Shown here: in pieces, positions 4,841 to 43,020 of the stretch
Layout of the letters: the number at the start of each line of letters is the position of its first letter
Position numbering within the stretch: the stretch's first letter is position 1
DNA from: Alicyclobacillus contaminans DSM 17975
Lineage (GTDB): Bacteria > Bacillota > Bacilli > Alicyclobacillales > Alicyclobacillaceae
Assembly (NCBI RefSeq): GCF_000429525.1
Contig: NZ_AUCA01000022.1
Span: 1 to 58,059 of the forward strand
Direction of reading: 5' to 3'
Length of the DNA: 58,059 bases
Notes under the pieces: generated by a model
Told to the model about the DNA's origin: nothing
Seen by the model: only the letters and a program-made list of their open reading frames with translations
Databases searched by the model: none
Made by a program: the position numbers and the translations under genes

Positions 4841-4953
4841 CTCTTATCCAGAGTGGCGGAGGGACTGGCCCAATGAAGCCCGGCAACCACCAGCGCAACC
4901 CGTTGGAGAGGTGCCAATTCCTGCAAACCGGGATCCGGTTTGAGAGATGAGAG
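4841..4953 (+). promoter_or_regulatory. SAM-I (S-box) riboswitch upstream of hom
   Basis: The sequence carries the S-box hallmarks in order: CTTATCCAGAGTGGCGGAGGGA, the ACTGGCCC-ATGAAGCCCGGCAACC core, AGGTGCCAATTCCTGC, and the closing GAGAGATGAGAG. The outer stem P1 pairs CTCTTATC (4841-4848) with GATGAGAG (4946-4953). A rho-independent terminator follows. S-box RNAs bind S-adenosylmethionine and stop transcription when it is abundant. Here that would shut down homoserine dehydrogenase and so the entry to methionine. Confidence 0.95.
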
Positions 4954-30315: not shown

Positions 30316-30344
30316 CACCATAATATCAGAATATTGTTTGGTTC

Positions 30345-30556
30345 GATGAAGAGGAAAAGTACTTCGCGTTGCTTTTGCGCAGAGAGGGATGGTCAGCGGC
30401 TGAAAGCCATCCTGCGAAAGTGTGAAGGAACCGGCCTCCGAGATGGCACCCGAACGCACAGTGAGTAAGGTGCCCGTTGACCACGTTATGGTCACAAGAG
30501 ATCTGGGCGTGGATGGTGTTGCATACGCCTGGAATCAGGGTGGTACCGTGGGATGC
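30345..30556 (+). promoter_or_regulatory. T-box riboswitch (proline) upstream of proC
   Basis: The leader has the GCAGAGAGGG element near the base of stem I, a candidate specifier CCG (30431-30433, in GGAACCGG) coding for proline, and the T-box core GGAATCAGGGTGGTACCGTGGG (30531-30552). The TGGT at 30541-30544 can pair with an ACCA tRNA end, which fits tRNA-Pro. T-boxes read uncharged tRNA and let transcription through when the amino acid is scarce. The specifier is my reading; the T-box core itself is unambiguous. Confidence 0.92.
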
Positions 30557-30597
30557 AAACTCCCGCCCCTGCCAACGGCAGGGGCGGGAGTTTTTGA
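30557..30597 (+). terminator. T-box-controlled terminator before proC
   Basis: AAACTCCCGCCCCTGCC pairs with GGCAGGGGCGGGAGTTT around AAC, followed by more T. It directly follows the T-box core. Confidence 0.93.
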
Positions 30598-31545: not shown

Positions 31546-31565
31546 GTGTGATGAACTTCATATCG

Positions 31566-31634
31566 GCTCGTATAATCGCGGGAATACGGCCCGCAAGTCT
31601 CTACCAGGCAACCGTAAATTGCCTGACTACGAGT
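31566..31634 (+). promoter_or_regulatory. Guanine (purine) riboswitch upstream of xpt-pbuX
   Basis: The aptamer shows P1 GCTCGTA with TACGAGT, the conserved TATAATCGCGGG, the CTACCAGGCAACCGTAAATTGCC loop region, and the GACTACGAG 3' side. The base that pairs with the ligand is C (31627), which specifies guanine or hypoxanthine rather than adenine. A downstream hairpin can act as the terminator. Control of xpt-pbuX by this RNA is the classic arrangement. Confidence 0.96.
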
Positions 31635-31725
31635 GGAAGCACATCTAGGGTTCCGTCGCGGTTCATTCGTGACCGGCGAGTCTGGACCGAGCGATGTGAG
31701 CACATGGTGCTACACCTTTGGGAGA

Positions 31726-35117: not shown

Positions 35118-35906
35118 TCAAGCGTGCTCAGCAGGAGGTGGGTCCGATGACGACGCGGTGGCGGATGTCTGCGGCTCAGACGACGCGGCATCCACAGCCT
35201 CTGAGAGTTCGGTCAACGCTCGCTCCATCTGCCACACCTGCTGCCAGTCGAGGTCAGGCAACAGGTCATGAAAGTCGTACAACCATTCCGCGGCCAGAGA
35301 GTACTTCCATGCGGCGTCGGCAAAAAAACCGGCAGCCTGAGTAAATTCTTCCCATCGGGCCTGAAGAATTTGTTTTGTGGTATTCTCCGCTGCGGGTTCT
35401 TCGGCTTCGTCCAGGTGTTGGGCGACGTGCCTTCCGACGTTGTCCCAGAGCTGCGCGAACAGCGCATCGTCATCCAGGTGGTCAATGTGCAGGACACCGC
35501 GGAGGTGGTCCAGTTCATGGCATATCACGCGAGCCAGCACCCCTTGCGCGGTCCGTTGGCGGATGTTCCCATGTCTATCCGCGCCCTCCACAGTCACCTC
35601 CCATGGACGCGTCAACCGCACCGTGAGGTCCGGGAAGCTCGCGCACGATTCCGGTCCGAGCTGCTCTCCGCGCTGAGAGACCAACCTCGGGTTTACCCAT
35701 TCTTCCACCTGTTCGCCGGTGTCAACGACCATGACTTGAACCGGTATTCCGAACTGTGGCGCGGACAACCCCAGCACACCGTGAGCCGACAGGGCCTCCG
35801 CCAGGTTATCCAGCAGTTGATGGAGTTCCTGGTTGAACTGTACTACGGGCTGGGAGATCTCTCGCAAGCGGGCGGTGTCTCCCTGTTCAATGCTGTGGAC
35901 GGACAT
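35118..35906 (-). CDS. Peptide deformylase-like protein with C-terminal extension
   Basis: This 262-residue protein has residues 1-150 matching peptide deformylase: GLSAPQFG (motif 1, about 46-53), ESCAS (motif 2, C88; the usual form is EGCLS) and ICHELDH (motif 3, His130, Glu131, His134). The cysteine and both histidines that bind metal are kept. The last 110 residues are an extra, mostly helical, acidic region I do not recognise. The ATG at 35906 has AGGAAGGG at good distance; ATG at 35915 is too close to it. It is divergent from a MetAP-GNAT fusion. Confidence 0.85.
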   Translation of the reverse strand: MSVHSIEQGDTARLREISQPVVQFNQELHQLLDNLAEALSAHGVLGLSAPQFGIPVQVMVVDTGEQVEEWVNPRLVSQRGEQLGPESCASFPDLTVRLTRPWEVTVEGADRHGNIRQRTAQGVLARVICHELDHLRGVLHIDHLDDDALFAQLWDNVGRHVAQHLDEAEEPAAENTTKQILQARWEEFTQAAGFFADAAWKYSLAAEWLYDFHDLLPDLDWQQVWQMERALTELSEAVDAASSEPQTSATASSSDPPPAEHA

Positions 35907-36034
35907 GTCCACCATCCCTTCCTACGATGGAATTCCCTATTACATACGCTCGGCCGCTGTACCGTGGCGCGGGCGCTGGCCTAGTTCAATTCCGAAGACC
36001 TGAAGTATAGATAAATCATGGTGCTGTCATAACT

Positions 36035-36060
36035 TGAGTTTGCCGAACGTGACAAACTCA
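36035..36060. repeat. Inverted repeat before the MetAP-GNAT gene
   Basis: TGAGTTTG (36035-36042) and CAAACTCA (36053-36060) are perfect 8-base arms with a 10-base loop. They end 18 bases before the ATG, next to the ribosome site. It could be an operator or an RNA stem that limits translation. Confidence 0.6.
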
Positions 36061-36078
36061 CGCGGGAGGCGGAGGGGG

Positions 36079-37332
36079 ATGGAGATCCTAACAGCGGCGC
36101 AAATGGACGCACTTCGCGCGTCCGGCCGCATCAATGCGGAGGTGCATGCGGCGCTTGCCACACAAGTGGTCGCGGGGGGCACCGGTAAGGCGTTGGAACA
36201 GGTGGCCAAGCAAATGATTCATGACGCTGGTGGACATTCCTCGTTCGAGAGAGAAGGGCGTTTCCCAGCCTGTCTGTGCGTGTCCATCAACGATGAAATC
36301 GGTCACGGTCTGCCAAGCGAACGACCGTTTCAACCGGGCGATGTGGTCAAAGTGGATCTGGGTGTGGAATTTGATGGAATACACACCGATTGCGCGCATA
36401 CGTATTTGATTGGCCCTTATGACGACCGGGCGGAACGGTTGGTGCGTGCCGCGTACCGGGCGCTGTACGACGGGATTGCGGCGGCTCAGCCCGGCCATCG
36501 AATTTCCGATATTTCCTATGCCGTGGCGCGATCCGTGCACAACGACGGATGGGAGATTGTGCGTCACGCATTCGGGCACGGCATCGGCGCGCGTTTGCAC
36601 CAACCTCCGCAGATCCCGAGCTTTGGACCACCGGGGCGCGGCGCGCGATTGCGGGTGGGGACGGCCATCACCATTGAACCCGTGGTGGTGGCGGGACTGC
36701 GCTACACCCGCACCTTGGCGGACGGTTGGACTACGGTCACCGTCGATGGGAGCCTCGCCGCGCATGTCGAGCACACGGTGCTGATTTCAAACGATGGTCC
36801 TGAAGTGGTGACAGCGATGCCCGCCTCTTCGCACGAAGACGCGCGACCACGTCTGGGTGATCCGCTGACGCGGCCATCGGCCATAGATGTCGGGGGCCAC
36901 TCCATTGATTTGCACAGCCTGGGTCCGGCCGATATGGAGGAGGCTCTCGCGTTGGCGCATCGGACGATGGACTCGGTTTTGGTGGAAGCCTGGGGCCGTC
37001 GCGTTCATCCGAATGATCTGTTCGGCCGGAAGGGCAGTCAGGGGTGGGTGTGTCGCGATGCCCAGGGCGACCTGGCGGCGTTCGTCATCTTCGAGAAGGT
37101 GCATCTTCTGCACGTGCACATCCTCGCGGTGGCGGAGGCTTGGCAGGGCACAGGGCTTGCCCACGGGTTGTTCGATGTTCTGGAGCAGGCTGCGGCGGAG
37201 AGCGGATTGCCGGGGCTGGAGCTGTGGGTACAGGAAAACAATCTACGTGCCATTCGCTTTTACCAGCATCGCGGTTTCCAAGATGCGGGCGTGCCGTACG
37301 TCAACACACGACGGATGATCAAGCGGTTATGA
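36079..37332 (+). CDS. Methionine aminopeptidase fused to a GNAT acetyltransferase
   Basis: This is one 417-residue frame. Residues 1-240 are a type I methionine aminopeptidase with all five metal ligands (D93, D104, H167, E200, E231) and the substrate histidine H76 (NDEIGHG). Residues about 280-417 are a GNAT acetyltransferase with acetyl-CoA motif A (VAEAWQGTGLAHGLFDVLEQ) and motif B (WVQENNLRAIRFYQHRGF). The joint (about 240-280) is hydrophilic, with no stop or frame change. The ATG at 36079 follows GGAGGCGGAGGGGG. It may remove Met and acetylate the new N-terminus (inference). Confidence 0.92.
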   Translation: MEILTAAQMDALRASGRINAEVHAALATQVVAGGTGKALEQVAKQMIHDAGGHSSFEREGRFPACLCVSINDEIGHGLPSERPFQPGDVVKVDLGVEFDGIHTDCAHTYLIGPYDDRAERLVRAAYRALYDGIAAAQPGHRISDISYAVARSVHNDGWEIVRHAFGHGIGARLHQPPQIPSFGPPGRGARLRVGTAITIEPVVVAGLRYTRTLADGWTTVTVDGSLAAHVEHTVLISNDGPEVVTAMPASSHEDARPRLGDPLTRPSAIDVGGHSIDLHSLGPADMEEALALAHRTMDSVLVEAWGRRVHPNDLFGRKGSQGWVCRDAQGDLAAFVIFEKVHLLHVHILAVAEAWQGTGLAHGLFDVLEQAAAESGLPGLELWVQENNLRAIRFYQHRGFQDAGVPYVNTRRMIKRL

Positions 37333-42760: not shown

Positions 42761-42877
42761 CGTTGGACACCGTTGGTCAATTCGGCACCGATTGACGAGC
42801 CCACCAGAACTTTAGCATTTCTTTCCCCGACATTCGTTGATAAGGTGGTAGACACACGGGGACGCCGTGGCGTCCAA

Positions 42878-43008
42878 ATCACGCCGAATCCTGGAACCCA
42901 GGTACGGGGGATTTTCGCGTCGTCGATGGCGGCGACAGGGGTGAAGGCTGTCCACACAGCCCGGGTCCTTTCCTCGATCCGAACCCGTCAACTAACCTCG
43001 GAGGCATA
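42878..43008 (+). promoter_or_regulatory. c-di-AMP riboswitch (ydaO-yuaA type)
   Basis: The leader of the NlpC/P60 gene contains ydaO hallmarks in order: CGCCGAATCCTGGAACCCAGGTACGGGGGA, then CAGGGGTGAAGGCTGTCC, and the strongly conserved 3' end CCGAACCCGTCAACTAACCTCGGAGGC (42968-43006; the first and last elements are described rather than fully aligned). This RNA class binds cyclic di-AMP and commonly precedes cell-wall hydrolase genes in Gram-positive bacteria. The exact 5' edge is approximate. Confidence 0.88.
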
Positions 43009-43020
43009 AGGAGGAAACCA

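Follow-up and report, generated by a model that had tools for sequence, protein, structure and literature searches.

A 58,059-nucleotide stretch of Alicyclobacillus contaminans DSM 17975 (contig NZ_AUCA01000022.1, the whole of which we call the window) carries two divergent genes, one encoding a type I methionine aminopeptidase (MetAP) that continues into a GNAT acetyltransferase domain and the other encoding a peptide deformylase (PDF) with a long C-terminal tail. We confirmed that these genes form a recurrent pair in the family Alicyclobacillaceae, and we consider it plausible overall that their products act together in the N-terminal maturation of proteins. All of the parts belong to known enzyme families. 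For their arrangement, no description of a MetAP-GNAT fusion was found in a literature search that covered titles and abstract openings, with most subscription papers outside its coverage.

Distribution and evolution of the gene pair

The full-length fusion was present in 21 of the 41 Alicyclobacillaceae genomes, spanning 9 of the 16 genera; the only named relative found is Alicyclobacillus pomorum DSM 14955, now Paenalicyclobacillus pomorum (Alicyclobacillaceae, Bacilli). The tailed PDF gene lay divergent from and adjacent to the fusion in 20 of these 21 genomes, at a distance of 131 to 472 bp, and it was absent from all 20 fusion-free genomes of the family. In the 21st carrier, G028, the PDF N-terminus is encoded at the end of the contig bearing the fusion (C17) and the rest starts another contig (C8) (L127, L134). 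An inverted sequence is common to the two broken ends, of the kind expected after an insertion, and the gene looks to have been interrupted by an insertion element, with the adjacent fusion frame open. If this broken copy is counted, the co-occurrence of the two genes, which an earlier note on this DNA, made from the sequence alone, had suggested looking for, holds throughout the family. The same divergent pair was also found in two of the four genomes of a second Bacilli family (G107 and G070). In total, the fusion is known from 23 genomes, of which 22 have a whole divergent PDF alongside and one has the broken partner. It is thus not peculiar to one assembly, a prospect that the earlier note had raised, and we rejected an assembly chimera or a chance read-through on this ground.

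A GNAT profile searched against 59 genomes of the order found no GNAT of the fused type in the 18 sister-family genomes. We extended the GNAT search to a class sample and a phylum sample of 398 genomes each, scoring at most the best nine candidates per genome, so that scattered members may be missed. Among the candidates scored in the class sample, G107 and G070 were the only genomes beyond the family to have the fusion, and the host alone matched at an E value of 1e-25 in the phylum sample. A search of the class sample with the tailed PDF, in which at most the best six candidates were scored and weaker tailed PDFs could escape, gave matches at an E value of 1e-44 in 108 of 398 genomes. Among the matches listed, the 13 covering the tail were all in genomes with the pair, apart from G147, whose extended PDF by eye has an unrelated tail without the W-K, with no MetAP in the 19.9 kb read.

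The genes flanking the pair are not conserved. The commonest is folC, found at 8 of the 23 loci, and no third gene was common to all 23 in a mutual comparison of the flanks, which in part lay on short contigs. Given the 8 of 23 loci, the idea of a general operon that includes folC was rejected. Searches for a mobile origin were negative as well: 50,697 phage records gave no match to the fused GNAT at an E value of 1e-6, viral contigs yielded no confirmed match, and none of the 368 plasmid records matching the fusion covered 80% of it, the ten listed matching the MetAP part only. A phage or plasmid origin is therefore unsupported. No PADLOC family matched the fusion or the PDF at an E value of 0.01, and a known anti-phage defense system was rejected accordingly.

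The pair is accessory, because separate genes exist for each of the corresponding housekeeping functions. As the earlier note had expected, a separate def was found in all 21 Alicyclobacillaceae genomes with the pair and a separate map in 20 of them, the exception being G037, whose assembly is 91% complete; rimI scored above its cut-off in all 41 genomes of the family, so that a role as a RimI substitute was rejected. The host itself carries its own housekeeping def and map. It also has a def-like frame of 106 amino acids (G000:C13:67363-67605; L137, 5349-5669) with the cysteine motif and HExxH but not the first motif, which is probably a remnant of a third deformylase gene.

Both genes evolve faster than the housekeeping map and def. 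The mean pairwise identity in 19 genomes was 0.494 for the fusion MetAP, 0.404 for the GNAT, 0.480 for the PDF catalytic part, and 0.275 for the PDF tail, compared with 0.800 for map and 0.687 for def in the same genomes; this set leaves out G028 (no whole PDF), G037 (no map found), and G107 and G070 (housekeeping sequences outside the set). The fusion and the PDF coevolve beyond what relatedness explains, with a partial r of 0.62 between their distances once the housekeeping distances were removed, a value reached in none of 2,000 permutations. On a tree of map and def, at least eight gains or losses were needed with both genes coded together. Each of the four parts shows purifying selection (omega of 0.06 to 0.25 in 19 of 20 values from five pairs of relatives, the 20th not being computable because synonymous sites were saturated), including the PDF tail, whose omega was 0.15 to 0.24 in the five pairs despite its low identity.

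Conserved features of the fusion and the tailed deformylase

The earlier note had described one uninterrupted frame joining a complete type I MetAP with five metal ligands to a GNAT domain with an acetyl-CoA motif, and this description was confirmed. The frame is open without a break to the stop codon at 37332. Its MetAP part (amino acids 1 to 246) scored 236.9 bits against a TIGR00500 cut-off of 171.35, which passes the curated type I MetAP threshold, and the GNAT part (amino acids 315 to 400) scored 50.2 bits against a PF00583 cut-off of 20.7. The metal ligands D93, D104, H167, E200, and E231, as well as the histidines H76 and H174, which correspond to residues of the E. coli enzyme, are identical in all 23 fusion proteins, two of which have identical sequences. 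The MetAP part of the fusion model superimposed on the Thermotoga maritima MetAP 1o0x with a VIA-align Z of 39.0 and a root mean square deviation (rmsd) of 1.1 over 247 residues. From this family membership and active site, the fusion would be expected to have MetAP activity. In a quick tree, the fused MetAPs cluster separately from 21 housekeeping maps of the Alicyclobacillaceae (branch support 100).

The GNAT part is harder to place. Its coenzyme A (CoA) loop reads Q356-G-T-G-L-A in the window protein, in keeping with the pattern [QR]xxGx[GA] that we take to be typical of GNATs. The loop starts with Q in 20 fusion proteins and H in three, and its glycine G359 is present in 20 of the 23, having been lost in three sister genomes considered below. 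A GNAT-like order of strands and helices, read by eye, is predicted with high confidence in the fusion model; VIA-align with the whole model listed only MetAPs among its matches, which speaks to the MetAP part and not to the GNAT fold. On the predicted fold and the loop glycine, a GNAT part without acetyl-CoA binding, a prospect raised in the earlier note, is mostly not borne out. The most distinctive feature is a segment with the pattern MDxxLxxAWGR, in which M297, L301, A304, G306, and R307 are present in 23 of 23 proteins, W305 in 21, and D298 in 19. By position, M297 to R307 falls in the first-helix region, which in GNATs usually lines the acceptor site, and its near-invariance suggests one acceptor family-wide. 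The segment is unlike the motifs that we take to mark N-alpha-acetyltransferases (NATs).

When the GNAT profile was compared with solved structures, streptothricin acetyltransferase and Ard1 tied at 49.3 bits, followed by PA2271, RimI, and Naa50. The nearest solved relatives, as judged by profile score, are thus divided at equal score between peptide N-alpha- and small-molecule acetyltransferases. Against the RimI model TIGR01575, the fused GNAT scored 36.0 bits, below the cut-off of 86.4. In the GNAT tree, the fused GNATs form their own clade with MDxxLxxAWGR. A stand-alone GNAT present in most genomes of the order scored 67 to 95 bits against the fused-GNAT profile and is the nearest free relative apart from the G040 copy described below. 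In contrast to the fused GNATs, these proteins lack the AWGR motif, and they form a separate clade (support 99). The host copy (G000:C5:72886-73326; L132, 6794-7405) lies near a gene resembling, by eye, a PcrA-type helicase gene.

One genome of the family, G040, has no fusion and instead encodes a free MetAP and a free GNAT of the fusion types about 1.7 Mb apart, with the key residues present by eye. In a quick tree, its MetAP falls among the fused MetAPs on a long branch (support 95), and the GNAT tree does not firmly place its GNAT within the fused group. From the MetAP tree alone, G040 seems to represent a later separation in which neither half was lost, and this retention points to the MetAP and GNAT activities working together.

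The PDF (amino acids 8 to 149) scored 119.5 bits against a PF01327 cut-off of 22.8 and missed TIGR00079, the curated equivalog; by these scores, it is a superfamily member off the housekeeping type. Residues Q54, E89, C91, S93, H133, and H137 are present in all 22 whole PDFs and the catalytic E134 in 21, with Ala in G034. The catalytic part superimposed on the Bacillus cereus PDF 1ws0 with a VIA-align Z of 26.3 and an rmsd of 1.4 over 149 residues, and deformylase activity would be expected from the family and active site. The earlier note was right in describing a deformylase-like protein with an extra tail; its estimate of 110 residues was short of the actual length of about 116. Three helices are predicted in the tail, of which W203-K204 is present in 22 of 22 and the remainder varies. 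The window PDF has 128 residues after HExxH, compared with 22 to 32 in 19 of the 20 fusion-free genomes of the family; the remaining one, G033, has one PDF with 72 residues after HExxH and a second with about 27, both without the W-K tail.

The tail is strongly acidic in 20 of the 22 PDFs (net charge of -10 to -39), and those of the second family carry -2 and +1. Ribosome exit-site factors, bacterial Map included, rely on positive patches (PMC10118133). The binding target of an acidic tail would therefore more probably be a partner protein or a substrate, and not rRNA.

Layout of the locus and intergenic observations

The coordinates of the pair are given below. Alignment A1 leaves out G004, which is identical to G014, and alignment A2 leaves out G004 and the broken G028. 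The host genome is 3.27 Mb in 111 contigs.

Table 1. Features of the gene pair in the window.
Feature	Position	Strand	Basis and remarks
MetAP-GNAT fusion, 417 aa	36079-37332	+	Model pLDDT 89.5; alignment A1, 20 distinct members
Type I MetAP domain, aa 1-247	36079-36819	+	TIGR00500 above cut-off; structural match 1o0x
Interdomain linker, aa ~248-271	36820-36891	+	pLDDT <50 at 249-262; length differs among relatives
GNAT domain, aa 272-417	36892-37329	+	PF00583; CoA loop QGTGLA 356-361; family-specific MDxxLxxAWGR 297-307
Tailed PDF, 265 aa	35118-35915	-	PF01327; model pLDDT 88.7
PDF catalytic domain, aa ~4-149	35469-35906	-	Motifs GLSAPQ, ESCAS, HELDH; structural match 1ws0
PDF C-terminal tail, aa ~150-265, acidic, three predicted helices, W203-K204 invariant	35121-35468	-	Model; net charge -17 in host
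Divergent intergenic region, 163 bp	35916-36078		Position and comparison with relatives

The likeliest start of the fusion is ATG 36079 rather than TTG 36034, because a purine-rich ribosome-binding stretch precedes the former. The start codons are 163 bp apart, not 170 as the earlier note had it. By its position, the region between them should hold the promoters of both genes; little of its sequence is conserved in relatives.

Two sequence elements were seen in the intergenic regions of relatives. The element TGCCCGTTTC occurs exactly upstream of the fusion in 8 of 20 intergenic regions (L013, L014, L015, L016, L018, L021, L022, and L023) and is absent from that of the window. It lies 45 to 49 nt before the fusion start in seven of the eight, mostly 17 to 18 nt ahead of a CATA box, and several copies come after a small variable inverted repeat; it is possibly a promoter or operator of the pair. 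The intergenic region of G017 (L012) contains 20 consecutive nine-base units of the CCTAGGAAG/CCAAGGGAG type, none of which was seen in those of G018 and G019.

Elsewhere in the window, Rfam matched a T-box leader (30337-30573) and SAM (4841-4953), purine (31548-31649), and c-di-AMP (42872-43020) riboswitches, the purine riboswitch lying upstream of genes matching xpt and pbuX. This complement is ordinary for Bacilli.

A proposed role in N-terminal maturation and its alternatives

We propose that the pair is an accessory module dedicated to N-terminal maturation, which would deformylate its substrates, excise their methionine, and acetylate them. The tailed PDF would remove the formyl group from the fMet of certain proteins, either nascent or finished, whose selection may fall to its helical tail; the MetAP domain would then take off the Met, and the tethered GNAT would acetylate the freed alpha-amino group of residue 2 before this could depart. 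The result would be a single-chain bacterial counterpart of the ribosome-built MetAP1-plus-Nat arrangement of eukaryotes. We infer the GNAT acceptor, the substrate hand-over, and the restricted substrate set together with the order of the steps, the last because MetAP does not act on a Met that still carries its formyl group and because an acetyl group added once the Met is gone would cap the new end. Least certain is the GNAT step, and for this reason we hold the probability of this maturation role at about one half. More tentatively, some Bacilli may possess a self-contained three-step line with its own deformylase, in which the fusion passes the trimmed end directly on for acetylation. Such a line would have arisen separately from the ribosome-bound MetAP1/Nat assembly of eukaryotes, and it would give these Bacilli N-acetylated proteins without Met, a class absent from other bacteria.

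The proposed module resembles several known systems. Housekeeping Def and Map belong to the same two catalytic families and share the active-site residues listed above, whereas here the MetAP is continuous with a GNAT, the PDF carries a helical tail that is conserved, and both are additional to def and map. In eukaryotes, MetAP1 and Nat enzymes are assembled on the ribosome through NAC (PMC12716425), and solved structures show ribosomes bearing MetAP1 together with NatA/E or NatD (PDB 9f1c and 9syr). Met removal is likewise followed there by N-alpha-acetylation with the enzymes brought together (PMC12716425, PMC10118133); however, the eukaryotic enzymes are separate proteins recruited by NAC, whereas the MetAP-GNAT is one chain with a paired deformylase. 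Bacterial N-alpha-acetylation has been reported for RimI, NatB/YiaC, and YfmK of Bacillus subtilis (PMC12299546). These share the GNAT fold with the fused GNAT, but are stand-alone enzymes, and the fused GNATs form a clade of their own.

Several observations weigh against a maturation role. The PDF is broken in G028, lacks the catalytic Glu in G034 (an assembly 62% complete), and scores 98.7 bits, under the equivalog cut-off of 103.95. G040 retains the MetAP and GNAT yet has no tailed PDF, so that the PDF would be dispensable. The acidity of the tail in 20 of 22 PDFs argues against direct rRNA binding, and no linked substrate gene was found at the loci. Most of the difficulty concerns the GNAT. 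G359 is replaced by Q or H in the sister genomes G010, G005, and G012 (L025, L026, and L027), whose GNAT domain is still under purifying selection (omega of 0.25 and 0.13). The five displayed GNAT alignments span the common core only, with streptothricin acetyltransferase equal to Ard1 in score, and the stretch that follows the conserved GF falls short of the length of the RimI hairpin, which has paired tyrosines.

The tie with streptothricin acetyltransferase as best structural match also leaves room for a somewhat different, rather doubtful function, in which a second PDF and MetAP would provide spare or inhibitor-tolerant Met excision, for example against actinonin- or fumagillin-like compounds, and the GNAT would inactivate the inhibitor or another small molecule. 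An accessory, patchy, and fast-evolving module (49% mean identity for the fusion MetAP versus 80% for map) would suit this function; it gives, however, no evident reason for the covalent GNAT-MetAP fusion, and no third gene recurs in all contexts, the flanks of relatives having been compared mutually and not annotated singly, so that a resistance or biosynthetic context may have escaped notice. It is unlikely that the GNAT instead acetylates lysines or other protein sites, or the MetAP itself, and so regulates N-terminal processing rather than completing it. In its favor, YfmK is reported to be a bacterial GNAT active on alpha- as well as epsilon-amino groups (PMC12299546), and MDxxLxxAWGR is dissimilar to the usual NAT motifs. 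Against it, a MetAP fused to the GNAT and a deformylase strictly paired with both suggest that the N-terminus is the target; in G040, both split genes are retained.

The accessory distribution, and the fact that both genes evolve fast yet under constraint, would also be compatible with the maturation of a single product, for example a secreted peptide that lacks a leader and begins with fMet, and not of a set of cellular proteins. No third gene common to the 23 loci, some on short contigs, speaks for such a product, which could still be encoded elsewhere or by an open reading frame of <90 aa, and we regard this as quite improbable. GNAT toxins that acetylate initiator Met-tRNA exist, AtaT among them, and a conflict system, in which the GNAT would target Met-tRNA or new chains, with either the PDF or the MetAP counteracting it, could account for a patchy, fast-evolving module with a broken PDF partner in G028. 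We consider it highly improbable, given that the fusion frame is open in G028 although the PDF is broken and that the PADLOC, phage, viral-contig, and plasmid searches described above were negative.

A dedicated maturation role remains our preferred reading. The N-alpha-acetyltransferases so far known from bacteria are few. Sequence is a poor guide to the function of a GNAT (PMC12299546); here, a natural fusion and a strict gene pairing name the likely partners of the enzyme and the order of action. If our proposal is correct, the pair would offer a small model of how Met removal is coupled to acetylation, a process at present studied with eukaryotic ribosomes, and it could be asked whether bacteria mark a subset of their proteins by the N-terminus.

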